In this document: piece after piece, positions 34,031 to 51,149 of the stretch | Layout: each line of letters begins with the position of its first letter | Numbering within the stretch: the first letter of the stretch is position 1 | Assembly (NCBI RefSeq): GCF_026210795.1 | Contig: NC_089429.1 | Coordinates: 6,915,001 to 6,979,000 of the forward strand | Reading direction: 5' to 3' | DNA length: 64,000 bases | Source: Rhizophagus irregularis | Taxonomy: Eukaryota; Glomeromycota; Glomeromycetes; Glomerales; Glomeraceae | Notes under the pieces: generated by a model | Told to the model about the DNA's origin: nothing | Databases searched by the model: none | Seen by the model: only the letters and a program-made list of their open reading frames with translations | Translations under genes and position numbers: made by a program

Positions 34031-35891
34031 ACGATAGAGCAAATTCTCAGCTTTCAAATGAATGTAAAATGATGACGTTAGCATATCTCCAGGAATAATA
34101 ATGCACGATTTTGTCACCTGCATAAAGTCCGATCTGAAAATTTTATTTCTTACCAAAAAATGCTTTCATAAGAGAATCCCAAATTCTTTTACTTTATTTA
34201 AAAGATTTTATTTGCCATTTAAGGATTTTAGTAGAATAAATCTAATAAAATAATTTTAAAAGATAAAAAACAAATATATAATTAGTTATTTTGAAAAAAA
34301 AAAAAAGAATATCTTATTATTCATTTTACAACTATTTTACATCATAATTATTTTTTATTTGCATGTATTTTTTACAAAGAAAAAATAATAAATTAAAGCT
34401 AAAAATTATGAAAAAATATGTCTTATCTATGTATATAAAATATTAAGTTTTTTCTTTTACTTACCACTTAAAAATAACTGCTATATTTGCTTATAAACTT
34501 TTTTGCCATATTTAATAAAAGTGAATAGAAAAAGGATGGAAAAGTGATGGGCAGTGATGGGGAAAAAGAAGTGGTTATTACCGTTATTTTTGAATATTGA
34601 TTAAAAAATTTTTTTTTATTTTTTATTAAATCTGAGTTACGTAAATATGTAACACATTTAATTTAGATTTGTGTAATGTTAATCTTATTAAAATATTAAA
34701 TTTTTATAAAAATCTTAATTTAGACTAATTCCAAAAATCGGCACATATGTTTCACATCCAGGTGGTATAAAAATTTTCAGAAAAATGATCACGTGTCTGA
34801 GTTTCTTCGGAATAAAACTAGAAAAATTTATTTTTAGAACAGTTCTTTAACATTACATAGCGTGTACCTAATTGTTGCAAAGTTATTTATCGCTGGGTGG
34901 TTATGGTGCATTGATGTTGATATCCATCAGCACACATTTCAGACGACATGCTCGTTATTGATAATCGCATAAAAAAATTCCATACCGTACCACTTACTGT
35001 ACCATACTCGTAACTTGTATACAGCTGATAAAATTAGTAGCGTACCGTACCATGCTGGCTCTATAACAATTATTGTTATTATTATTAACGTTCTTTTTTT
35101 TATTTTTTATTATTTTGCGTGTAATTTTTTTTATATAGTCTAATAGGGAAGAGAATAACGAATAAGACGAGAGTTAGAGCAAACAAACCTTAATTTTGTC
35201 AATAATATTGTCCTTACTTATAAATTTTATATGATCAATATCAGATATCAAATGTACTTTTATAATTATTATTAATCTGATTGTATTGATTTACACTAGC
35301 GAATAAATTTAATCAATATATTATACGCAACATCGGGCATCTTGACGCTGACGATGTCAGTAATTCAATGGTACTGAACTTAAAAAAATATACAGTATAC
35401 AAATATCAAACCGCATCCGTCGTAACCGACAAGAAATAGTGAAAGTTTAAAATTTTTTTATAAAGCAACTGTTTAGTAATTGACTTAAAAAAAGGTGATC
35501 TTAAGAAGAAACTGCACGTTATGCGGTGTAATCTACGTCTGGTTAAGAAATTGTATATTTGGCATTTATAATAAGTCTATGATTTCAAAATTTCTTACGT
35601 CGAGTACAATTAGTGGGTTGTTCGATCGTTTTAATAGTATATGATGCCTAGCCTATATGGCGTTATTGAAATGTTGGATCATATTGTTATTACAAAATCA
35701 TTTTCATTTCTATACAATTCATATACTTGATATGAAAAGGATTTTAAAAGGTTTTCATCATATGATGTATGGAAAATTGGCGATTGTTTGATGTAAATAA
35801 ATTTCTTTTATTCTTTGATATGTATAAATGAAAATTTGGATAATTAAAAAAATTCTAAGGTTGTTTTGTGCAACTTTTTATGATATACTGA
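34031..35891. other. AT-rich intergenic DNA
   Basis: No gene is recognised. Two GTACCGTACCA words (34985 and 35042) are the only notable motif. Confidence 0.5.
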
Positions 35892-37071
35892 TGTAAACGG
35901 TTGAATATCAAGTGCGAAAAGATGATAAAATTTAATCACCAAATGTAATTGCCAAATATTAAGAACGAACAAACTAATTATGAATTGGCGTAGATGGATA
36001 AATAATTAGCCGAAAAGGATAAACATTTAAGAAGAGCAATGATCTACATGATGTAATATTTATCAGATGATTAACAAAAAACCAATAGAATAATTAGAAT
36101 CGATCAATTGCGGCTTAGCAATCTTTAACAATAAGAACAATTAGAAAGAATAATTATAAGCCACAAAAGGTAGATCATATAAAATGGAGGGATAGTGGAC
36201 TAAAGGAACACGCATAACAAAAATACATACATTCATTCTCATGTTTTATTATTTCTTGCGAACATTTGTCTTTCTTTCTTGAAAAATCTTCATTTAATAT
36301 TTCTTTTATTTCAAAGATTTCTAATTCTTTCGAAAAGTATATCGTTTTACAAATAAGTTTTTATTCACAAAATTTACAATATATCTTAAATTTTACTTCC
36401 ATAAATAATAATATAAAAAGATAGTATAAAGATGGAACATAAAAGATAACATATTGGAAAGAACATATATAAAAAGATAGCATATTAGAAAGATAGTTCA
36501 AAGATAATATGTAAAAAGAACATAAAAGATAGTATATAAATAGAATAGAAAGTAGCATAAGATTTGTATAAATAGAGAGCGGAATTCAAAGTAATTCCAC
36601 AGTTCTCATCCACAGAACTCAATAAAAATATAAGTTTCATTTAATTATTTGTTAGTGAAGTTTAATATTAATTAAAGGTAATAAGTTCGCCCTAAACTTT
36701 AATTAATGTTTGCTTAATTAATTTTAATTGAATAAAATGAAAATTTTAAGATGAATTAAATATACATTTTTGGAAAGTAATAATTCGTAGCGAGAGCTAT
36801 CGAAGTTTGAAATTAAAGGTAAAAAGTGGATATAATTTGGGAAAATTTAGAGAAGTTAAATTTTATTTTATATCGTTCGACATTTTATATTACTAACGCT
36901 ATTTATATCGTGAACCAAGAATGTTGTTGTATGTTGTTTGATTATATCGTTGATTATTTGTTTGTTCGTTTAATTGTTCGTTCATGCGATTATTCGTTCG
37001 TTCGACCATGAGAATGCCCGTTCGATGTGGCAACTCTGTAAATTGATGACAGAGGGAATTGGGGGATCTCA
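35892..37071 (+). repeat. 5' LTR
   Basis: Begins TGTAAACGGTTGAATATC and ends GGGGGATCTCA. It contains a 230-base segment (about 36180-36410, starting GGAGGGATAGTGGACTAAAG) that is absent from both other LTRs and replaces the AT-rich GATAATAT repeat region, so it carries an insertion or replacement. TGGTGCATGCTCC at 37074 could be the primer-binding site, but I could not assign it to a tRNA. Confidence 0.85.
36567..36575 (+). promoter_or_regulatory. LTR TATA box (5' LTR)
   Basis: TATAAATAG is followed by GAGAGCGGAATTCAAAG and, about 60 bases on, ACTCAATAAAAATATAAG. It is conserved in all three LTRs and likely drives the genomic RNA. Confidence 0.65.
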
Positions 37072-38668
37072 TATGGTGCATGCTCCAAGAAAGAAAATGA
37101 TCATCATCACATGATTATTAAGAATATGAAGATTTAATTTCGTTAGTAAGTCACTGATAGGTATTATTAATCAATATTTTATTTTTAGAATTTATTTTTA
37201 GATTTCAGGTTTTAACGAGTTCAAAAGGAACCAATAAATCAACAAGGATTTAATTGAGTTAAAAACTTGAAAGGTGAAAGATTGAAGTTTGAAGTCGTGC
37301 AAGTAATCATTTAATCGATAGAAAGCACGAGAATATTTCTTTTGGAAATAAAGTACCTGAGAAATTTCGTAAGGAGACGTGGAAGTGAAAGATGAATTTT
37401 GGAATAAAGATTAATAATGGGAGAACACCAATGCATTATCTGGGGTTCATCTGTGTCGTATGGGTTACGTCTGAGTTTGAATTTTGGATAAATGCTCGAG
37501 ATTGGAAAATTTTTATTCTTCGATATTAAGGATTATAACGTATGGGTTACGTCAAATCTGGATACCCAGCTCAATAATGCGCAAATTGCTTTGGGGACGG
37601 GGAATGAAAATTGTAAAGACACCTACTATCAAGAAACATTGAAAGAATAAAATGGGACAAACCTGTAAACTATCATGCTTTTACCCAATGGGAAAAAGAT
37701 AGAGATAAGCCCAGTATAGGTCCACCAACTTGAGAAAAGATAAGTTAGTTTAGACGAGTTTTATGGATAGCAGATGACTTTTGAAACTGGATTTCAAAAG
37801 GTTAGATTCACCCGTTAAAAGACAAGTCGACTAACGAAAGAAGAAAAGACAGATACGTTGTATTGTTACAGGTCCTAGGCTACATTTCAGATGAGGGTTC
37901 CTGGTGTAGTGTGCTAGGTCACGTTCTCATTACAATGTTCTGTTAAAAGAAGATAAAATAGAAGGATATTTACACATTAACGAGCTGTATAATGAATATT
38001 ACGTGCAGTATTTAATAATAGAGTAAAGTCCAAAAAGAGGATATGAATAAAAACGTTGAAGAAACATTTTATGTATTTGAAAAGAAGAACATTTATTTGA
38101 AAAGAAGGACATTTTGTGTGCTATAAATTAATTTATATAATATAGAATATATAATAAGAAGGATTTATGTGGACGATAAGAAAGATTGAAAATTCACAAA
38201 CTTTAAAAGTTATGAAAATTTTGGAGTTTGTGATATGTGATATGTGAAATTATAAATCTCGGTGATAGAAGATAAATTTTAGAATGTGATATGTGAAATT
38301 ATGGATCACGGTGATAGGAGATAAAATTTTAGAATGTGATATGTGAAATTATGAATATCGGAGATAAAAGATAAATTTTGTGGCGCAGTAAAAACCTCCG
38401 CAGTCTGAGGAGATCGTGGACTTAGGATAATTTTTGAAATTTTGAGGCGCAGTAAAAATTAATAGTAAAATATGGCGTAGCAAATATATAAAACTGAAAG
38501 ATGGAATCTAAAGATTGAAAGAAGTAATCTATTTAAAGATAAAAGAATGTTTAGAAGATCAAAAATAGAAACGAATAAACGATAAGAGTGAAATGTATAT
38601 ATATAGAGAGATAGGAATCCGATTGAGATTCTGGATGGATATTCATAGCAACTTAACTAAAGCATACA
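37072..38668 (+). other. retrotransposon leader
   Basis: There is no long frame. GTATGGGTTACGTC occurs twice (37457 and 37540). At 38226-38380 GTGATATGTGAAATTATGRA..CGGTGATAGAAGATAAA is repeated about three times. AGGCGCAGTAAAAA-type words occur at 38380-38480. These may serve RNA packaging or translation control, but that is speculation. Confidence 0.55.
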
Positions 38669-41260
38669 ATGGAATGGTACCATCAATGGGAAAGTGAATA
38701 TAGAACACATAAAGAGGAACACGAATTAGGAACGGAAGAATTGGACGAATGTTTAAATTGTGAATTATGTCATCCAATAGTAAATGAACCAATAGTATTC
38801 AAGAAATTTTGGGATGCATTATTTAAATTTAAAGATGCAATAATAATATATAACAATGTAACAATTAATGGAGTATTAGATTTATTAAGTATAAATAATT
38901 CAGAAAGAGAAGATACAATACATAAAGGAAAATGTAGGAATATAATGGATAGAATAACGGAATCGATAAGGTATAGGATACAACCAAAAATGAAAGAAAA
39001 AGGATTACGAACAATTATATTAGTAATTGTAAGAGACTGTATTGAAGGAGATTTAGAGAATGAAGTATTTGATAGATTAATTGGAAACCCTGAACTAGTG
39101 GAACACAAATATATTTTAGAAGATTGGGATGTTGAAAGAAGGTTTGAGAAATTTTGGCAATGGTACAAAATCATATCGAAAGAAGTTGAACCATTACGAG
39201 TAAAGATGGGAGCAATAAAGACATTCAGGGAATTACTATATGAAGAAGAAGGAATAGCTATGAATGAGGAGAAAGTAAAAGAATTAATGTCCAATATGGA
39301 ATATGGGAACATAAACATAGAGAATGTTCACGAATATCACAGGAATATGGTACAAAAGATAATAAGAATATTTATAGATACTAGGGGCTTTACAAAAGAA
39401 CCAGAAGATTCAGAAAGTGAAGATAGCTTAGAAAGTTACGAAATGAAGAAGAATTTTAACATGAGTTTATATCTTAGATTTGAAAGATTCAGGTACTGGT
39501 GGAATGACAAATATGAAGGTAAACGAATACATACATATCATGAAAATGATTCATTAGAATGGTTCGAAAAGATGTTATCTGAGGGAGAGAATTTGCAAGA
39601 AGATACTGTAAGGAAGCTGACGGATAGTATGACATTTAAGGATAGCGAAGATATGTATGAAAAAGATCCTATTATATTGAGAATAGATGATGGAGTAATA
39701 GAATGGATTGTAACAGATTTAAAAGAAGCGATGGAAAGAACGCAAAAATTTAAGTTAGTGGAGATAGAGCAAGAAGAAGGTGATGAAATATATGATTCTG
39801 AGGAAGAAATAGAAATAATAGTAGAAGATAAAATGTGGAAGTTAGGTGAAATAAGAATAGGATTAAGACAACTAATAGTAAACCCAAAAGAAAAGCTTAT
39901 CAGGGAAATAATGAAATTTGGAATAAAAGAAAAGATAGAAACAGGAATACTGTTAACGTGTGATTTTATAAGATATTATATTTTTCTGAAAGGGAGATTT
40001 GATAAGTCTGAAGAAATAAAGGAATGGATGGATTCGAGTACGATAATATGTAATAGATGCAGTAAACAGAAATTAGATTATATGATATCAAAAGAAAATG
40101 GCAGATGTGAAGAGTGTAATCAGGAAATACGGGAAGATGAACAAGATGAGTTAATAGAATTAAAAAACAACTTAGAAAAGCTAGGATACGAAATAGATGT
40201 GTCAGAAATTCAAAGAATAAAGAATTTTGGAGTTAATAATCGAATAATAGTGACAGAAGAATTCATAGAAAGGTATATGAAAATAATAGAATTAGAAGAT
40301 AGAGAGTTAAGAAAAGAGGTGCACAGATGGTTAAATGAGAATACAACCTGGTGCGAAAGATGCGAAATAAGATGGATGAATGATATGTTTAGATTAGGAG
40401 GAACTGTATGCAAAGATTGTGAGGAAGAAGATATCGATAAAATTGATGATCGGGTAAAAAGATTTCAGAAGATTTTTGAAGATATTGGAACAATAATAAT
40501 TGAAGAAGAATTGTTAAGATTAACTAGTATGGGATATACAGATGGAGAAATTTTAGATAAAGAATTCATTGGAATCTTTCAAGAAAATAAAAATGAGTCA
40601 GAGAAAGAATTGAAGAAAAAGTTAGATAAGTTGTTGAAAGAACAAGCAGGAATAATAGATAGTGAAGAAAGTGGTGAAAAGAGTGATAATGAAGAATCAG
40701 AAGATAATACAGATGATTCAAAAAAAACTGGAGAAATATTAAACCCAGATGAAATATGGGATGAAAATATTGAAAATTTTAACGAAGATGAGTTTGAAGA
40801 TAAAATTGAAAATGTTATAAATAGAGGAGATATCGACTTAAGTCAAAACTCAGATACGAATAGTTTATTAAATATTAAAAATTCTGACAACGAAAGTGAA
40901 TTATCTGATTACAATTTACAAGATTTATTTCAAGAGGATATATTAAATATGGCAACTGAGAATCAAATAAAAAGATTGATAGAGAATGCTTTAGGTTATC
41001 CAGTTAATACTTTGAATGCAGCAGTAGGAGCGGGAGCAAGTTTGATAGAAAGGATTGAAAATGCAGGGAATGAAGCAGGGGGAGTAATTAGTGTACCACT
41101 CTTTTATGGAAAAGAAGATGAAGACGTTAACGATTGGGTTAGACAATTTGAGGTAGCATTTACAGCAGTCGGAAAAGCAGCTGGAGCTAATGGTACAAGA
41201 CAAGCAGCATACGCAGCAGCACATTTAAGAGGGCAGCAGCACAATGGTATAATGAAATGA
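38669..41260 (+). CDS. large N-terminal ORF: duplicated CxxC modules fused to the start of Gag
   Basis: The ATG at 38669 opens an 863-codon frame. Residues 1-760 are acidic and Lys/Glu-rich and are not a usual part of Ty3 Gag. They contain C28-x2-C31-x2-C34 and two zinc-ribbon-like modules with identical spacing, C461-x2-C464-x15-C480-x2-C483 and C562-x2-C565-x15-C581-x2-C584. Each module is preceded by a helical region of about 75 residues, and a third helical copy without cysteines follows (about 605-665). Residues 670-760 are a Ser/Asp/Glu-rich linker. From M761 (MATENQIKRLIENALGYPVN) the sequence becomes a Gag N terminus, with VPLFYGKEDEDVNDWVRQFE typical of retrotransposon Gag. A one-base deletion near 41232 ends the frame at 41260. 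The function of the extension is unknown; RNA or DNA binding is a guess. Confidence 0.75.
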   Translation: MEWYHQWESEYRTHKEEHELGTEELDECLNCELCHPIVNEPIVFKKFWDALFKFKDAIIIYNNVTINGVLDLLSINNSEREDTIHKGKCRNIMDRITESIRYRIQPKMKEKGLRTIILVIVRDCIEGDLENEVFDRLIGNPELVEHKYILEDWDVERRFEKFWQWYKIISKEVEPLRVKMGAIKTFRELLYEEEGIAMNEEKVKELMSNMEYGNINIENVHEYHRNMVQKIIRIFIDTRGFTKEPEDSESEDSLESYEMKKNFNMSLYLRFERFRYWWNDKYEGKRIHTYHENDSLEWFEKMLSEGENLQEDTVRKLTDSMTFKDSEDMYEKDPIILRIDDGVIEWIVTDLKEAMERTQKFKLVEIEQEEGDEIYDSEEEIEIIVEDKMWKLGEIRIGLRQLIVNPKEKLIREIMKFGIKEKIETGILLTCDFIRYYIFLKGRFDKSEEIKEWMDSSTIICNRCSKQKLDYMISKENGRCEECNQEIREDEQDELIELKNNLEKLGYEIDVSEIQRIKNFGVNNRIIVTEEFIERYMKIIELEDRELRKEVHRWLNENTTWCERCEIRWMNDMFRLGGTVCKDCEEEDIDKIDDRVKRFQKIFEDIGTIIIEEELLRLTSMGYTDGEILDKEFIGIFQENKNESEKELKKKLDKLLKEQAGIIDSEESGEKSDNEESEDNTDDSKKTGEILNPDEIWDENIENFNEDEFEDKIENVINRGDIDLSQNSDTNSLLNIKNSDNESELSDYNLQDLFQEDILNMATENQIKRLIENALGYPVNTLNAAVGAGASLIERIENAGNEAGGVISVPLFYGKEDEDVNDWVRQFEVAFTAVGKAAGANGTRQAAYAAAHLRGQQHNGIMK

Positions 41261-42584
41261 AAGAAGTAAATGTAGGTCACTTAGTGAATTGGGCAGATGT
41301 AGATAATGATAATGATTTAAAACATAGAATAAAGAGGAGATTTACCAGAGAGGATGTTAGAAGAAAGAAAATGCTAGAATTAAGAAAACTCGACAGGAAG
41401 TAAATGAAAGTGTTGAAGAATACACAAGAAGATTTAGACAAATATTAAGAATAGCAACTAGGGGACATGCCTTAGCAGATGAATATCAAGTAGATTTTTA
41501 TATCGAAGGATTAGAACCAACAATAGGGTATCAAGTTAGAAGACAGAATCCAGGGAACTTAAATGGGGCAATAGAAATAGCAGTAAGAGAAGAAGGTGTA
41601 AAGGACGAATTTATTAGGAAAGCAATAGGTACACCAGTTAGTACGAGTATAGACATCAAAAGAGATAATAATAGACAAAATATGTTCGCAAAACCATTGA
41701 ATGAAAACTATGAGGACGAATTAGTTAAAGCGTTTGAAGAAAAGGCAAGAATTAGTAAATTAGAAGGACTGGTATCAAATATAGAGAGAAGATTAAATAA
41801 TGATAATAGGAATAGGTATTGACCAGATGTAGGAAGGAGATTAAATAATGGTAATAGGAATGGTTATCAATCAAATCAGAATAGGGTACCAACATGTTTC
41901 AGATGTAATAAAGTGGGGCATTATAAGAATAATTGTCCTGAAGGAAGGAATGCAAGAGTAAATATGATGGACGAATATGATGACCAAGAGGAATATGATT
42001 ATGATGGATATGAATATGAGAAACCACAATACGATGGAGTATATTATACACAAGGATATTAATATGATTATGAAGATAGGGAATTAAATTATTATAATGA
42101 ATTGTACGCAAAAGATAACGCAATAAAAACAAGAAGACAAACAAGAAGGACGAATCCAACAGTGGGATATAAAAATAATAATGAAGAAGGAAATTTACAA
42201 GAAGAATTAAGAGAAGCGGGAAATAGAATGGATGATAGAAAAATACCAAGTGGTACAATGGCACCAAGTTATACACCTGAACGAACTGAACAGAATTGGG
42301 ATAAACCGATAGGACCAAGAAAAATGAAATGGAGTAATAAAAGGCAAGATTTTTACGACCCAACAGAAGGACTAAGAAAATGGAGAGAAGCAGGGGGACC
42401 AACAAAACCTAGGGTATATGGACCGAGATTAACTGACGAAATACCACCTTACGACATTGTGGGAGACGTGAAAAATTGTAGAGTGAATATAACATATGGA
42501 CAATTAATAAATGAGAATACTAAGTATTATAAGCAATTGAGGGAAGGAACATATAGACCAAGAAGTATGAACAAGAAAAATTGA
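41232..42584 (+). pseudogene. remainder of Gag with CCHC zinc knuckle, broken frames
   Basis: After the shift near 41232 the Gag core continues in another frame (QWYNEMKEVNVGHLVNWADV, HRIKRRFTRED). A one-base loss in an A run near 41386 moves it again (RQEVNESVEEYTRRFRQILR, FYIEGLEPTIGYQV). This is the retrotransposon Gag helical domain. Stops lie at 41820 (TGA) and 42060 (TAA). Between them is the nucleocapsid zinc knuckle CFRCNKVGHYKNNCP (C-x2-C-x4-H-x4-C, 41896-41940). The frame then runs open from 42063 to a TGA at 42582, with a basic, Pro-rich tail. Gag forms the virus-like particle and binds the genomic RNA. Homopolymer shifts could be sequencing errors; the two substitution-type stops less so. 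Confidence 0.75.
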
Positions 42585-42602
42585 CTACACTCGGTGGGAA
42601 CT

Positions 42603-43097
42603 ATGAAAAATGAAGAAAAAAGAACTACAGCAATGAGAACAGAATTAGAAGTTGAAGATCAATTAGTAAATGTAATAATAGATACTGGAGCAGCAGTAAG
42701 TGTGATAACAGATAAATTAAGAAGAAGATTGAATATACCTATATTTGGAAAAAGTAAATTTAGATGTACAATAGCAAATGGGCAAAAGATAGCGGCGTTA
42801 GGAAAGGCAAATATAACTTTGAGGTACAAAGATGAATTAGAGATACTGAAAGAAGTTGAAGTGATCAATTCAGAAGAAGAGGATCTAATTTTGGGAAATG
42901 ACATATGGAAGTTGTATAATGCAAAAATAAATTTTGAAGATCATACCTTAAGAATAGAAGAACAGGGAGAAATAATAACGATTCCAGTAGGATATGAAAG
43001 AGAAGTAGCATATGAAAGTGAGGAGAGTGAGGACGATGAAGAATATGAAAGTAACGATGAAGGAGAGGTATTCAAAATGCACCAGAATTTTAAATAG
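42603..43097 (+). CDS. retropepsin-type aspartic protease
   Basis: This frame is the same as the end of gag, separated only by the TGA at 42582-42584. The first ATG is at 42603. NVIIDTGAAVSVI (catalytic Asp 27 from this ATG) is the retropepsin active-site signature. ILGNDIWKLYNAKINF is the usual second conserved segment, with LGND in place of the more common LGxD/LGRD. The C terminus is acidic (ESEESEDDEEYESNDEGE). It would cleave the Gag-Pol polyprotein as a dimer. It ends with TAG at 43095, and the reverse transcriptase begins in the -1 frame. Confidence 0.8.
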   Translation: MKNEEKRTTAMRTELEVEDQLVNVIIDTGAAVSVITDKLRRRLNIPIFGKSKFRCTIANGQKIAALGKANITLRYKDELEILKEVEVINSEEEDLILGNDIWKLYNAKINFEDHTLRIEEQGEIITIPVGYEREVAYESEESEDDEEYESNDEGEVFKMHQNFK

Positions 43098-43132
43098 AGA
43101 GTCTTGGCTCTGAAGAGAGAGAGACGGAAAAG

Positions 43133-45166
43133 ATGCTCGAACTAAGTGAAAAATTTATGCAAAAACTAAGTATAGGAGAAGTAGAAGAACCAATTTGGGA
43201 AAATATGGTAAAATTACTATTAGAATACCAAGATATTTTAGAATACGACGAGGAAATAGAAGGAATAACAAAAGCAGCGCAACATGAGATAAAGATAAAA
43301 GAAGGGGTAGAACCAATAAAGCAAAGAAGATACAAAGAAACAGATGAAAAGGCAAAATTTATAAGCGAAGAAGTGGATAAATTGTTAAAACAGGGAAGGA
43401 TAAGGAAATCAAAAAGTCCATGGAGTTCACCTGTTACATTAGCAGGAAAGAAAACAGGAAAATATAGGTTCTGTATTGATTACAGAAAGTTAAACAAGAT
43501 AACTATAATGGATAGTTTTCCTTTGCCAAGAATGGATGAATTGTTAGACAAATACAGAAAAGCAAAATGGTTTTCAAGTATAGATCTAGCGGCAGGATTT
43601 AATCAGGTAGAAATGAAAGAAGAAGACAAAGAAAAAACAGCATTTGTATGTTCGAAAGGATTGTTTGAATATAATGTAATGCCATTCGGTTTAACGAATG
43701 CACCAGCAACATTTCAAAGATTAATGGACGAAATATTGGAAGAATACATAAACGATTTTGTAGTAGTATATATCAATGATATTATGATATATTCAGAAAA
43801 TTTGAAAGACCATATGGAACATGTGGAAAAAGTATTAAAGAAGTTACAGGAGAATAATTTAATAATAAAATTGAAGAAATGTAGATTTTTGGAAAGAAAC
43901 ATAGAATTTTTGAAACATATTGTAGGAAATGATGGATTAAGGCCAGACGATAAAAAGATAGAAAAGATAAAAGAAATGAAGGCACCAACCACAGTAAAAG
44001 AAGTAAGATCATTTTTAGGACTTTGTTCATATTACAGAAAATTTGTGAAGAATTTTTCAAAGATAGCAAGACCAATAAGTGATTTGAGAAAGAAGGGAAT
44101 ACCTTTCATTTGGGGAAGAGAACAACAAGAAGCGTTTGAAAAATTGAAAGAAAAGTTAATACAATATCCAATATTACGACATCCAGATTGGAAGAAAGAA
44201 TTTTTATTAATAACAGATGCATCAGGAAAAGGATTAGGTGCAGTATTAAGTCAAAAAGATGAAAAAGGAAAAGAAGTAGTAATAGCATACGCAAGTAGAA
44301 GTTTATTACCAGCAGAAGAAAATTATCCGATAACAGAATTGGAATGTTTAGGAATAGTTTGGGGAATTCAACATTTTCATAAATATTTAATCGATAGAAA
44401 ATTTAAAGTAATAACAGATCACAGTGCATTAAAGGGATTAATGAATGCAAAGATACCGAAAGGAAAAAGAGCGAGATGGGTAATGGAATTACAGCAATAT
44501 AATTTTGAAGTAATACATAGATCAGGAAAAGAAAACACGAATGCTGACGCATTGAGTAGGTTATTAAAGATAGCAGAGGATCAACCAGAAATAGTAATAA
44601 TCGATGGAGTAGATGGATTAGGAAAAACAAGTATAGTACAAAATTTAATTAAAGAATGGGAAAAGCAAGGATTAAAAGTAAGATTCAATACTTATAAAAG
44701 AAGAAGAAAAGATAAAGATAAATTTTATGAATCAAAGATGGAGACAGAATGGAAATTCAGAAAAGAAGTAGTAGAACAAATAAATAGAAGAATGTTAGAA
44801 TATGATGAAAATACAGATATAATAATTTTAGACAAATCACCATATTGTGAATATTATTATCAAAAGACGAAAAGTTTTGACAGAGGATTAATTACTCCAC
44901 ATGGAAATCATGAGATGGAAAAAGAAATATTCAGATTGAAAGAAATAATAGATAAATCAATAGTGATATTTTTAGAAAAAGATGGCGATGTATGTTGGAA
45001 GAATTACATCGGAAGAGAAACAAAGAAAATGGAAAAATCATCATATCCAACATTAAAAAAGGATGAATATTTGGACATGGTTAAAATGTTTGAAGAAAAT
45101 CAGAGTGTGTACAAAGATACCAAAAGATACAGTCGAGTAAAAGTTAAAAACGACAATAGTAGCTAG
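43133..45166 (+). CDS. reverse transcriptase-RNase H fused to a thymidylate-kinase-like P-loop domain
   Basis: The frame has 677 codons and stays open upstream to about 43095; the ATG at 43133 is formal. Residues 60-330 are a Ty3 reverse transcriptase (SPWSSP, FCIDYRKLN, SSIDLAAGF with catalytic D151, MPFGLTNAPATFQ). The YxDD box reads YIND (213-216), so one metal-binding Asp is replaced by Asn. Residues 355-475 are RNase H (TDASGKG D362, E404, TDHSAL D429, NADALSR D472). Directly after this, residues 485-677 are a P-loop kinase: IVIIDGVDGLGKTS (Walker A, 492-500), a DKSPYCEYYYQ motif (567-577) matching the DR-S/Y motif of thymidylate and deoxynucleoside kinases, and a late IGRETKKMEKSS segment resembling their LID. 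Such enzymes phosphorylate (deoxy)nucleotides. The domain is intact except for a shifted C-terminal end after an A run at 45142. Confidence 0.88.
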   Translation: MLELSEKFMQKLSIGEVEEPIWENMVKLLLEYQDILEYDEEIEGITKAAQHEIKIKEGVEPIKQRRYKETDEKAKFISEEVDKLLKQGRIRKSKSPWSSPVTLAGKKTGKYRFCIDYRKLNKITIMDSFPLPRMDELLDKYRKAKWFSSIDLAAGFNQVEMKEEDKEKTAFVCSKGLFEYNVMPFGLTNAPATFQRLMDEILEEYINDFVVVYINDIMIYSENLKDHMEHVEKVLKKLQENNLIIKLKKCRFLERNIEFLKHIVGNDGLRPDDKKIEKIKEMKAPTTVKEVRSFLGLCSYYRKFVKNFSKIARPISDLRKKGIPFIWGREQQEAFEKLKEKLIQYPILRHPDWKKEFLLITDASGKGLGAVLSQKDEKGKEVVIAYASRSLLPAEENYPITELECLGIVWGIQHFHKYLIDRKFKVITDHSALKGLMNAKIPKGKRARWVMELQQYNFEVIHRSGKENTNADALSRLLKIAEDQPEIVIIDGVDGLGKTSIVQNLIKEWEKQGLKVRFNTYKRRRKDKDKFYESKMETEWKFRKEVVEQINRRMLEYDENTDIIILDKSPYCEYYYQKTKSFDRGLITPHGNHEMEKEIFRLKEIIDKSIVIFLEKDGDVCWKNYIGRETKKMEKSSYPTLKKDEYLDMVKMFEENQSVYKDTKRYSRVKVKNDNSS

Positions 45167-45274
45167 AGAAAAGTATTTAAAGAAGTGGAGAAATGGAGAA
45201 GAGCACAGGACTAAAAATATAGAACACATAACGAAAATAACAAATTCAGAAGTAGAATCAATTAAGGAAATATT

Positions 45275-46429
45275 ATGGAAGAAAATAATTATAAGAGAAT
45301 AATAGACAATATCGAAAAAGAGAATAAGTATGAATTGAAAGAGGGAATTTTATATAGAGTGAAAGGACAAAACAAATTTAGAGTAATCAGGGATTATGAA
45401 TACGAAGGATTGATGTACATGATGCATGATAATGAATTATCAGGGCATTTTGGGATAGAAGCGACATTAGATAGAATAAAAGAAAATTATTGGTGGAAAA
45501 ATATGAAGGAAGATGTAGAAGAATATGTAAAGACATGTTGGAATTGTCAGATGAGAGGAAAACCAAGAGGAAAGAACGAATTAACGTCAATAAAGATAAA
45601 TGAACCATTCGAGATGATTGGGATAGATATAGTTGGACCATTAAAAAAGACAGAAAAGGGAAATAAGTACATTGTAGTAGCAATGGATTATTTTACAAAA
45701 TGGCCCGAGGCCGCACCACTAAAAGAAGCTACGGCGAAAGAGGTAGTAGAATTTATTTGGAGGGACATAATTTGTAGACATGGGTGTCCAAAGAAAATAA
45801 TTAGCGATAGAGGGACTCACTTTAACAATAAAATGATGGAAGAATTAGTAGAAAAATGTGGGATAAATCATAGATTAAGTACACCATATAGGCCACAAAC
45901 AAATGGTTTGGTCGAAAGATTCAATAAAACTTTATGCGAGGGATTAGCCAAATTAGGAGAAGAAAATTGGGATAAGCATATACCATCCGTATTATTTGCA
46001 TATAGAACGAAGAAGCAGTCGTCAACAAAAATTAAACCTTTTTATGCAACATATGGAAGAAGAGCAAAACTACCATTAGACAAAGATGAAAATAAGATAA
46101 CATTAGCTGACAGAATAAAAATATTAATTGAGAAGCTACCGGTAATAAGAAGAAAAATAAAAGAAAATGTGAAAGAAGTTCAAGAGAAACAAAAACAACA
46201 ACACGACAAAAGAGGAATTAGAAAACCTAAATTTGAAATAGGAGAAAAAGTATTATTATATGAAGCATGGAGAGAGAAACAATGGTCTGGAAAATTACAG
46301 AACAAATGGAAAGGACCATATTTAATTCATGAAGAATTTGGAAATGGAGCTTATAAACTCAAAGAATTGGATGGAAGAATACTAAAAACACCACAAAATG
46401 GAGAATGGCTAAAGAAATTTTATGATTGA
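45275..46429 (+). CDS. Ty3-type integrase
   Basis: The frame has 384 codons and lies in the same frame as the kinase domain. The linking 110 bases are open only in another frame (KTTIVAREKYLKKWRNGEEH onward), so two compensating one-base shifts (about 45142 and 45277) separate kinase and integrase. The N-terminal zinc-binding domain is H51-x6-H58-x29-C88-x2-C91. The catalytic core is D118 (GIDIVGP), D178 (ISDRGTHF) and E214 (GLVERFN), an exact DD35E. A C-terminal WKGPYLI segment is the GPY/F module. All residues needed for strand transfer are present. It inserts the cDNA into the host genome. Confidence 0.9.
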   Translation: MEENNYKRIIDNIEKENKYELKEGILYRVKGQNKFRVIRDYEYEGLMYMMHDNELSGHFGIEATLDRIKENYWWKNMKEDVEEYVKTCWNCQMRGKPRGKNELTSIKINEPFEMIGIDIVGPLKKTEKGNKYIVVAMDYFTKWPEAAPLKEATAKEVVEFIWRDIICRHGCPKKIISDRGTHFNNKMMEELVEKCGINHRLSTPYRPQTNGLVERFNKTLCEGLAKLGEENWDKHIPSVLFAYRTKKQSSTKIKPFYATYGRRAKLPLDKDENKITLADRIKILIEKLPVIRRKIKENVKEVQEKQKQQHDKRGIRKPKFEIGEKVLLYEAWREKQWSGKLQNKWKGPYLIHEEFGNGAYKLKELDGRILKTPQNGEWLKKFYD

Positions 46430-46577
46430 GGGAGATTTACCCCAAAAATAGTAATTAAAGGAAAAGAGGTATTCGATAAGACCCGAGTTCGATTCGATTA
46501 GAATTATTATGAATAAGACACGAGTTCGATTCTATTAAAGTTATTTGTGAGGTCACAAATAGCGAAGGAGGGGATAA
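46430..46577 (+). other. 3' leader with polypurine tract
   Basis: GAAGGAGGGGATAA (46564-46577) directly abuts the TG of the 3' LTR and is the plus-strand primer. Before it, GAGTTCGATTC occurs twice (about 46486 and 46524) within a near-duplicate AAGACMCGAGTTCGATTC segment. Confidence 0.75.
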
Positions 46578-47661
46578 TGTAAACGGTCAAATATCAAGCA
46601 TGAAAATATGATAAAATTCAACCACCAAATGTAATTACTAAATATTAAGAATGAACAAATTAATTATGAATTGGCGTAGATGGATAAATAATTAGCCGAA
46701 AAGGATAAACATTTAGGAAGAGTAATGATCTACATGATGTAATATTTGTTGAATGATTGACAAAGAACCAATAGGATAATTAGAGTCGATCAATTGCGGC
46801 TTAGCAATCTTTAACAATAAGAACAATTAGAAAGAATAATTATAAGCCACAAAAGATAGATTATAAGTAAAACACATAAAGCGAATTAAGAGAACATATA
46901 AAATAATGTCAGAAAGATTAAAGAACATAAAATAACATAAAAGATAATATAAAAAGATAATACAAAGATATTATAAAAGATAATATAAAAAGATAATACA
47001 AAGATATTATAAAAGATAATATATAAAGATAGCATATTAAAAGATAGCGTATTTAAAATATAGATAGCATATTAGAAAGATAGTTCAAAGATAATATGTA
47101 AAAAGAACGTAAAAGATAGTATATAGATAGAATAGGAAGTAGCATAAAATTTGTATAAATAGAGAGCAGAATTCAAAGTAATTCCACAGTTCTCATCCAC
47201 AGAACTCAATAAAAATATAAGTTTCATTTAATTATTTGTTAGTAAAGTTTAATATTAATTAAAGGTAATAGGTTCGCCCTAAACTTTGATTAATGTTTGC
47301 TTAATTAATTTTAATTGAATAAAATGAAAATTTAAGATGAATTAAATATACACTTTTGAAAAGTAATAAATCGTAGCGAGAGCTATCGAAGTTTGAAATT
47401 AAAGGTAAAAAGTGGATATAATTTGGGGAAAATTTAGAGAAGTTAATTTTTATTTTATATCGCTTAATGTTTTATATTACTAACGCTATTTATGTTATGA
47501 ACCAAGAATGTTGTTGTATGTTGTTCGTTGATTATGTTGTTTGATAATTATGCGGTTGAATATTTGTTCGTTCGTTCGTTTATTCGTTCGTTTGACCATG
47601 GGAATGCCCGTTCGATGTGGCAACTCTGTAAATTGATGACAGAGGGAATCGGGGGACCTCA
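46578..47661 (+). repeat. 3' LTR
   Basis: Begins TGTAAACGGTCAAATATC and ends GGGGGACCTCA. It is closer to the solo LTR at 27209-28279 than to the 5' LTR of this copy, and lacks the 230-base insertion of the latter. Confidence 0.9.
47154..47162 (+). promoter_or_regulatory. LTR TATA box (3' LTR)
   Basis: TATAAATAG in the same context as in the other LTRs; it could drive readthrough into the hAT region downstream. Confidence 0.6.
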
Positions 47662-48594: not shown

Positions 48595-49632
48595 ATGTCA
48601 GAAGTTTGGGAATATTTCCAAAAAATTAGAAATGACAATAATGTCATTATATCATTAAACTGCCAATTATGTGAAACAGAATATGGAGTATTAACTTCTA
48701 CAACAACACTTCGTCGACACTTAAGAAGTATTCATGCTTCTACGTATGTATATGGACCAAACCTTTTATCACAAAACTCTTCTTATACTTCTGCTGAACA
48801 AAAACATATAACAACAAAGCTTACACAATGGGTTACTGTTGATTTACAACCTTTTACTGTTGTTGAACAAGAACAGTTTCAGGAGTTAATTTATACTTTA
48901 GATCCACGTTACATTTTACCATGCAGGCAAACTTTGAAAGAAGAAGTAAATTCATTATTTTTACAAAGAAGAGCAAATGTCAAATCCGAAATTGATAATC
49001 TTACATCAAAAATTTCTTTAACAACTGATATTTGGTCTTCTACATATAATAATACAGCCTTTTTAGGAATTACAATGCATTACATTACCAATAACTGGAC
49101 AATGAAAAAATGTTTATTGGATTTTATTTCCATAGAGGAATCCCATTCAGCAGCACTAATTTTAACTAAACTAACTGATGTTTTACAAGAATTTAATATA
49201 AGTAATAGAATCATATCTCTTACAACTGACAATGGTAGCAACATGTTAGCATGTGGAAGAGAACTTGCTAATGAATTAGAGGCAGGATTTTTTAATTTTA
49301 CATTTTCTCATAATAGATGTGTAGCACATATAATCAATTTGGCAGTTAAGGCTGGAATGAAATATTTGGACTCTTCTATTGTCAAATTGCGAAAATTTGT
49401 TAATAAAATAAAAAATTCTCAATTATTAATTGATGATCTTAAAAGTATTTGTAAAATTAAAAATGTAAAATTTCTAATGCCAATACAAGATGTTGACACA
49501 AGGTGGAATGCAACTTACCAAATGATTGAAAGACAAATTTCTACACGAGATGTAATAGAAATCTTAGTGAATTCTCATAACAATATATTAAAAGATTTAT
49601 ATCCAACAGATATTGAATGGAGAAAAATATTG

Positions 49633-49730
49633 GTATATTTTCAAATTTTTTTTAATTTTTAATTTAAATTAAATTTTTTTATTGAATTAATTTGAAAATT
49701 AATTAAATTAATTTTTTTATATACTATTAG
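49633..49730 (+). other. spliceosomal intron of the hAT transposase
   Basis: Donor GTATAT, acceptor ACTATTAG, 98 bases, very AT-rich. Removal restores an uninterrupted conserved segment. Confidence 0.85.
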
Positions 49731-50072
49731 GAATTAGTTGATGTATTAAAACCTATGTATAAAGCTACTATTTTACTTTCATCAACATCAACACCAACGC
49801 AAGGAGATTTGCGTCTAGCTTTTTTGGGAATGCTAGCTTCTTTGCGACGTCAGCGACAATCAGATCTAGCAAATGCCATATATGACAAACTTTGGACCTA
49901 TTGGAACAGACATTTATCTAAATCATTAGCTATTTCTGCAATTCTTGATCCACGTTACAAACTTACAACTTTTCATAATCAAGAAGAACGCAAAAATTAT
50001 ATTAATCATTTACAAACTTTATTTTCTTCGTACATATCAAATTCCCAAATTACATCAAATACAACAGATGTA

Positions 50073-50630
50073 CACTACCCTCCCAAAAGTATCCGGTCAA
50101 CCAATAAAGATCATATTTTATTAATAATAATTAATATTTAGTTGGCCATCCATGCATGCTTCAATTTGGCGTGGCATGCTCTCAATTAAATTTTAATGTA
50201 AGTTTTGGATGGAATTCTTTCTCACTTTTTTTTTAGCCATTAATCCAGTATTAAAATTTTTGTATCGAACAATTATGTCTGTAACAGTACTTTTTGGAAA
50301 TTTTAGGATATGACTGATTGCTTCATAAGTTTTTATCCTTTCCAAAGGCTAATAATTTTCTCACGCTCACTCAATTCACGAGTTTTTCACATTTTAAAAG
50401 TAGCCGAATGGCACAGTAACAAAAAAAGCAAAGATCAGCATTGGCAAAATTGAGGTGTTATTATTTGTTTTATTGCCAAATCTGGTACAAGCATCGTAAT
50501 ACAATAAAAATACATTCATTTTAATCGTTAGAACCAGGGGAATTGTTTTTTTTTTAAAAAATAATACTTTATATATTCAATCTTGAGAAAATCAAGTTGA
50601 GCTTGGCCGGATACTTTTGGGAAGGTAGTG
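50073..50630 (-). mobile_element. internally deleted Tc1/mariner element inside the hAT transposase
   Basis: Terminal inverted repeats CACTACCCTCCCAAAAGTAT.. and CACTACCTTCCCAAAAGTAT.. (in reverse complement) are flanked by TA on both sides (50071-50072 and 50631-50632). On the minus strand relics of a Tc1 transposase remain. One is the N-terminal helix-turn-helix (RELSEREKIISLWKG, then KFPKSTVTDIIVRYK after a frameshift). The other is a C-terminal piece (ESMPRQIEACMDGQ). The DD34E core is deleted, so it can move only with help. Confidence 0.88.
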
Positions 50631-51149
50631 TAACTTCGCAAGATTCAAGAACTTATTTTTAAATATGATTAATAATAGTCAAAATTATGCAGAAAATTCG
50701 GAATATGATGAAATTAATAATTATTTGAGTACACCATGTGATATTAATGCAGATCCGTTAGTGTGGTGGAATGTTCACCAAAAAAATTATCCTACACTTT
50801 CACTAATAGCAAAGGATTATTTAATTATACAAGCCACAAGTGTATCATCAGAGCAAGCCTTTTCAGTGGCAGGTAATACTATTACACAAACAAGAAATAG
50901 GCTGGATCCTGAAACAGCACGTGCAACTTTATGTCTTAAAAGTTGGATTGAGAATAAGTTGGGAATTAATATAACTAATGAAGATGATAAAGAAACTAGT
51001 AGTAATAGTAGTGATAGTGATTATTGTGATAGTACTAGTATTATTAGCAGTGAAGACAGTGATAATGATGACAGTAATAGTGAAGATAGTGATAGTGAAA
51101 GTGAAAGTTAATGTTTTTTTATTTTAATTATTCATTAATTATGTTTTTA

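Follow-up and report, generated by a model that had tools for sequence, protein, structure and literature searches.

The locus raises the question of why a Ty3 retrotransposon of the arbuscular mycorrhizal fungus Rhizophagus irregularis should carry a nucleotide-kinase-like stretch immediately behind its RNase H. The window, i.e. the whole 64-kb stretch of DNA analysed from this 146.7-Mb genome (32 contigs), holds the element at positions 35891-47661, with all features on the forward strand. LTRs lie on both sides of the coding region (35891-37071 and 46577-47661), and a polypurine stretch is found just before the 3′ LTR. An aspartic protease ORF (42594-43097; gag-asp_proteas, 4e-9) is followed by an ORF of 677 aa (43133-45166), in which the reverse transcriptase (RT) and RNase H (43133-44584; RVT_1 6.2e-41, RT_RNaseH 3.6e-37) pass at residue 485 into a P-loop kinase domain of 193 aa (44585-45163), recognized by Pfam, by the profile phrog_761 and by its genomic matches. 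The integrase ORF, with zinc-binding and core domains (45275-46429; Integrase_H2C2 1.1e-21, rve 3.6e-15), comes last. The element thus shows the Ty3/Gypsy order protease-RT-RNase H-integrase, split over several ORFs. An ORF of 863 aa (38669-41260) comprises a long upstream part and a C-terminal part that is gag-like by eye only; it matched no Pfam family at E ≤ 1. Several Cys pairs were seen by eye in the long upstream part, ahead of the gag-like end.

The sequence-only reading had let the integrase continue in the kinase frame. This proved to be incorrect: three in-frame stops (45164, 45212 and 45263) lie in the gap between the two (45164-45274) and the integrase has its own ATG at 45275, so that it is a separate ORF despite the equal frame number. 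In two sisters of the window copy from its subfamily, the kinase ORF is 16 codons longer and the integrase again starts separately at an ATG of its own. Age and damage are evident in the window copy: its LTRs are only 89.8% identical over the aligned bases, its RT active-site motif is altered and its kinase ORF is stopped early. The active site reads YIDD or YLDD in 20 of 22 RT rows, the exceptions being the window and L009, which are one locus, and the early stop is common to one other copy among those listed. The kinase motifs of the window copy are intact. Neither a clear target-site duplication nor a tRNA primer-binding site was identified at the LTR edges. Three further ORFs in the window (48595-51111) may, judging by a motif, represent a broken hAT-type transposase.

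The motif set described in the sequence-only reading was recovered behind the RNase H as IVIIDGVDGLGKTS, NTYKRRR, DKSPYCEYYYQ and GRETKK, and in an alignment of 47 relatives the Walker A, KRRR, DKSPY and RE motifs were almost invariant. D10 and K14 of the Walker A motif DGVDGLGKTS (44603-44632) are each conserved in 46/46 relatives (one gap), as are D83 and K84 of DKSPYCEYYYQ (44831-44863; one gap), while N35, R39 and R41 of NTYKRRR (44687-44707) and R144 and E145 of RETKK (45014-45028), a LID-like stretch, are each found in 47/47. The P-loop is of the type E/D-G-x-D/E-x-x-G-K-S/T, with the acidic residue that marks thymidylate kinases (TMPKs). DKSPYCEYYYQ is presumably the counterpart of the DR[YH]/ERS motif of known kinases. 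The DR[YH] motif of TMPKs is absent from the domain and DKS stands in its place, known TMPKs having DR where the element kinase has DK; the serine of DKS has its like in the ERS of deoxynucleoside kinases (dNKs).

The domain is not limited to the window copy. Searching the whole genome at the protein level with the window kinase gave 151 matches, 150 of them listed; 130 of the listed matches are full-length and 124 of these have no inner stop. All these counts are lower bounds, and at least 130 full-length copies exist, because scoring covered 150 of the 171 candidates from a first look for the kinase and 108 of the 344 for RT. A listed kinase lies at most 1.5 kb downstream on the same strand in 107 of the 108 scored RT-RNase H relatives, the sole exception being the copy C13:673413, which rules out a one-off insertion. 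Twenty loci of 5.5-7 kb, 42 entries by module and five kinase-less loci were examined closely. No listed kinase was found within 3 kb at 62 of 63 RNase H profile matches (the first 63 of the 150 scored), and the five kinase-less loci read (L048-L052) pass from RT-RNase H to integrase with no kinase match. Other Ty3 elements sampled from the same genome are thus without the kinase. One branch of the RT tree (100/100) separates 18 kinase-bearing rows from 5 kinase-less rows, although this tree, built from chosen rows and rooted at its midpoint, does not prove a single origin of the kinase-bearing clade.

Beyond this genome, 76 homologous proteins of the kinase were found at E ≤ 0.01 and a further protein search gave 37 hits. 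The best named matches are R. irregularis proteins with 94-97% identity; among the other homologs are proteins of R. clarus and Glomus cerebriforme, a partial one of R. diaphanus and numerous metagenome proteins. In proteins of R. clarus and G. cerebriforme (P0110, P0105 and P0060), precomputed Pfam annotation shows the kinase joined to RNase H or integrase.

Four subfamilies differ in the distance that separates the kinase from the end of the RT-RNase H match: 12 nt in subfamily A, which includes the window element (45 copies), 231 nt in B (19 copies), 243 nt in C (8 copies) and 271 nt in D (18 copies), the spacing being variable in copies outside them. In the A, B and C copies read, the kinase is the last part of the RT-RNase H ORF and the integrase stands apart; in the D copies read, a stop ends RT-RNase H, and kinase and integrase share one frame. 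The protein P0107 (593 aa, 47 member sequences) is such a D-type kinase-integrase protein. Predicted proteins point to a possible third form, a kinase ORF standing alone: four metagenome kinases of 264 aa (P0008, P0015, P0030 and P0039) start with M-K/R-QKY. The kinase is not the cause of the split between RT and integrase, because in the kinase-less elements read (L048-L052) the integrase is also in a frame other than that of RT or in its own ORF; with the integrase apart from RT in both kinds of element, splicing, recoding or reinitiation may be required for its expression. In the subfamily B locus L015 (4089-4634), kinase and integrase are about 546 nt apart, with an open stretch of more than 100 codons, as compared with only 221 nt in L027. 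The kinase-less locus L049 (1382-2269) encodes about 290 Cys-rich residues in frame after RNase H with no further Pfam match, which represents another insert at the kinase position.

Subfamily B is a clear example of a domain exchanged between lineages of elements. Compared with the window element, its kinase is 88% identical, its RT-RNase H about 65% and its integrase 60%. The DNA of L015 is 95-100% identical to that of L027 over the 500 bases before the kinase and 52-82% identical inside it, whereas in comparison with subfamily A the identity is below 50% just before the kinase (A being without the extension there) and 80-95% inside. Between L015 and L027, dN amounts to 0.037 in the integrase and to 0.248 in the kinase. 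In the RT tree subfamily B groups with L027, L023 and L024 (100/100), whereas in the kinase tree it falls into a clade with A, L031 and P0089 (100/98), in which the A-B fork is weak (81/51). The identity shifts, the dN contrast and the conflict between the trees therefore demonstrate that the kinase of subfamily B was exchanged as a cassette, with a sharp boundary at about the first kinase codon. Template switching between co-packaged RNAs would be a suitable route.

Selection was estimated as pairwise Nei-Gojobori dN/dS, where dS above 1.2 is near saturation. The kinase gave 0.049-0.128 in 11 pairs (dS 0.02-1.2) and 0.095-0.182 in five more diverged pairs, and the ratio was undefined in one near-identical pair; the integrase gave 0.025-0.123, with a single value of 0.327 outside this range. 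The kinase values of subfamily A (0.049-0.074) slightly exceed those of RT (0.035-0.053 for non-identical pairs with dS <1.2), i.e. the kinase is slightly less constrained. The kinase is therefore under purifying selection. The degraded state of the window copy would suit a captured gene fragment that is carried along without function, but we regard this explanation as extremely improbable: dN/dS of 0.05-0.13 in 11 pairs rules out a neutral passenger, 124 of the 130 full-length copies are open and the motifs are near-invariant. Since the kinase is family-wide and under purifying selection, neither of the two outcomes which the sequence-only reading had named as speaking against it, a lack of matches to kinase families and a one-off insertion, applies. 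The nucleotide-kinase module, as we read it from its sequence, is a real, selected and family-wide part of these Ty3 elements, and its function is inferred below.

The name of thymidylate kinase given to the domain in the sequence-only reading is supported only in part: the sequence fits the superfamily, with thymidylate kinase as one candidate family. The profile search proposed there did give matches, to Pfam dNK (PF01712; 3e-5, 24.3 bits) and to Pfam Thymidylate_kin (PF02223; 6e-4, 20.0 bits), both below the curated cut-off of 27. Among 47 relatives at E ≤ 0.01, the TMPK model matches 39, the dNK model 11 and the generic AAA_14 model 40, and PF02223 is the precomputed annotation in 21 of the 76 homologs. 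The best NCBIfam matches are dTMP kinases (2e-4 and 6e-4), far under their cut-offs. The profile phrog_761 ‘thymidylate kinase’ matches the window domain at 2.1e-14, and also 46 of the 47 relatives, but it marks the superfamily only because the dNK of the fungal genome matches it too (2.4e-17). With hhalign, the scores were 69.1 for the host dNK, 47.6 for the host TMPK, 36.9 for E. coli Tmk and 30.2 for the dNK of phage SP-15, against maxima of 27.0, 18.8, 17.4 and 17.8, respectively, in 40 shuffles each; 168, 101, 89 and only 20 columns were aligned. The negative control HolB (14.9) remained inside its shuffle range. Alignment past the P-loop with a score above the shuffles was thus obtained with the host dNK, the host TMPK and Tmk. 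In a profile search of solved structures, FtsY P-loops were best and TMPK chains appeared only at E 0.065 and worse. Hhalign with shuffled controls assigns the element domain to the P-loop kinases of the TMPK/dNK superfamily, where it is nearest to the dNK of the same genome; its place between RNase H and integrase, noted in the sequence-only reading, holds for the family (107/108). It shares with the TMPK family (PF02223) the P-loop with an acidic residue, the D[KR] region and the LID-like stretch, and differs from it in having DK for DR and in lying inside a transposon.

A deoxynucleoside salvage kinase of the dNK type, rather than a monophosphate kinase, is a possible though not the favoured identity. 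The higher Pfam score of dNK, the top hhalign score over 168 columns and the serine of DKS argue for it, while the frequency of TMPK over dNK matches among the relatives, the dTMP kinases at the head of the NCBIfam matches (far below cut-off), the invariant acidic residue of the P-loop and the score of the second dNK tried (SP-15), which is under those of both TMPKs, argue against it. We think it rather unlikely that the domain is a P-loop kinase with another substrate, e.g. 5′ ends of nucleic acids during integration or the processing of cDNA, or that it regulates Pol as an ATP-binding domain. The substrate class is not fixed by the sequence, in the copies that were read the domain has RNase H or integrase as its neighbour (it is fused to integrase in subfamily D) and a phrog ‘polynucleotide kinase’ profile weakly matches P0109 (E 0.0016). 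However, TMPK/dNK profiles and proteins give the longest matches, which run through the DKSPY region, and P0109, the nearest relative found outside the elements, carries a NUDIX domain, a type of domain common in nucleotide metabolism. Much less probable still is an AAA/STAND-type ATPase which merely resembles a kinase. Several AAA, NACHT and NB-ARC Pfam models match at similar E-values, and in two relatives, P0107 and P0109, such models (AAA_18 or AAA_28) extend over more than half of the domain; on the window domain, however, the AAA-type models stop by residue 97, whereas TMPK covers residues 6-175 and phrog_761 residues 3-168, and the dNK of the genome aligns across its 168 columns.

Besides the element kinases, the genome carries an intron-bearing TMPK and a dNK. 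The dNK gene (G000:C28:1224011-1224604, L037; Pfam 1.2e-31) is very A-rich and may belong either to the host or to a mobile element. Elsewhere in the genome, a second stretch resembling thymidylate kinase, of diverged sequence (G000:C24:3288271-3288729, L033), adjoins a stretch that is HMG-box-like by eye.

A clue to the source of the module may come from P0109, a protein of 393 aa from a metagenome contig that combines a NUDIX domain with a kinase 48% identical to that of the window. In contrast to the elements it has the NUDIX domain but neither RT nor integrase, and it is represented by one protein cluster. P0109 forms the longest and outermost branch of the midpoint-rooted kinase tree, and it weakly resembles the N-terminally extended elements from about 30 residues ahead of the kinase onwards. 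The protein may be either ancestor-like or derived. There was no second NUDIX-kinase among 13 proteins from a protein search with P0109, and in the fungal genome 105 scored matches to it cover the kinase part; one match starts inside the NUDIX stretch (residue 114) and is read through six stops. A phage origin, hinted at by phrog_761, is not supported, since the match of this profile to the genomic dNK is no weaker. When 50,697 phage records were searched by tblastn, the window kinase found a single hit (E 8) and P0109 none, and pattern scans for viral and prokaryotic relatives found 3, 42 and 39 stretches fitting the pattern, none of which was confirmed.

On balance, we consider it fairly probable that a Ty3 clade of arbuscular mycorrhizal fungi acquired and retains in pol a selected kinase of the TMPK/dNK superfamily which raises dNTP precursors locally. 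Pol would be made as RT-RNase H-kinase and then cut by the protease; made together with Pol, the kinase would enter the particle and stay at the site of cDNA synthesis. Active on deoxynucleosides or deoxynucleoside monophosphates, it would phosphorylate a DNA precursor there, our first guess being dTMP to dTDP, and the triphosphate would then be completed by a nucleoside diphosphate kinase of the host. Spores and hyphae of arbuscular mycorrhizal fungi are long-lived and mostly non-dividing, and the presumed setting is hyphae and spores mostly without DNA replication. The composition of the elements offers a hint of dTTP demand. The sense strand of the window element (37072-46576) contains 44.3% A and 9.2% C, its flanks being balanced. 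The A content of the RT sense strand is 43-45% in five kinase-bearing elements and 28-37% in five that lack the kinase; in the integrase the two groups differ less (43-46% vs 32-43%), and the host dNK gene, too, has a high A content (47.3%). An A-rich sense strand makes the first-strand cDNA T-rich, so that its synthesis draws most on dTTP. As the genome has its own TMPK and dNK, a need of the element for a kinase of its own does not follow. More speculatively, a self-supplied kinase packaged with RT might be a selectable and exchangeable cassette, perhaps derived from a NUDIX-kinase enzyme of the nucleotide pool; its exchange would then imply pressure on the kinase module itself, e.g. through dNTP limits in non-dividing hyphae and spores.

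Supply of dTTP or dNTP precursors to reverse transcription would plausibly make the kinase a counterpart of the retroelement dUTPases, the fold of which is different from that of the kinase. In non-primate lentiviruses, the dUTPase is located between RNase H and integrase. Such retroviruses resemble the kinase elements in having an added nucleotide enzyme at this position and differ in the enzyme class, the animal hosts and the single polyprotein. Retroviral dUTPase is placed between RT and IN also in the text of PMC5408684. LTR elements of fungi, rotifers and planarians are described as carrying dUTPase (PMC2864245, PMC5408684, PMC6431247), and the word kinase occurs 0 times in the main texts of these three papers. 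The fungal Ty3/Gypsy examples are PosPlaTy3 of Postia placenta and elements of Tuber and Phanerochaete (PMC2864245). As described there, they likewise have an enzyme of nucleotide metabolism in pol at a varying position, but it is a dUTPase at the ends of Pol or at the protease-RT junction, with no kinase; dUTPase was proposed there to help retroelements in non-dividing cells (PMC2864245). Passages in papers on R. irregularis transposons mention kinases among the gene families that are expanded in the host (PMC8647823, PMC11075540). On searching open-licence PMC papers, no title or opening abstract line was found to describe a kinase-bearing Ty3 element, in agreement with the earlier remark that no such arrangement was known. 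To the dUTPase, the nucleotide enzyme named in the retroelement literature as far as these texts go, the selected kinase module of a Ty3 clade adds another. Its retention across a large clade would make it directly testable whether the host dNTP supply limits retroelements. It also follows that some proteins labelled ‘thymidylate kinase’ in their source databases are parts of retrotransposons.
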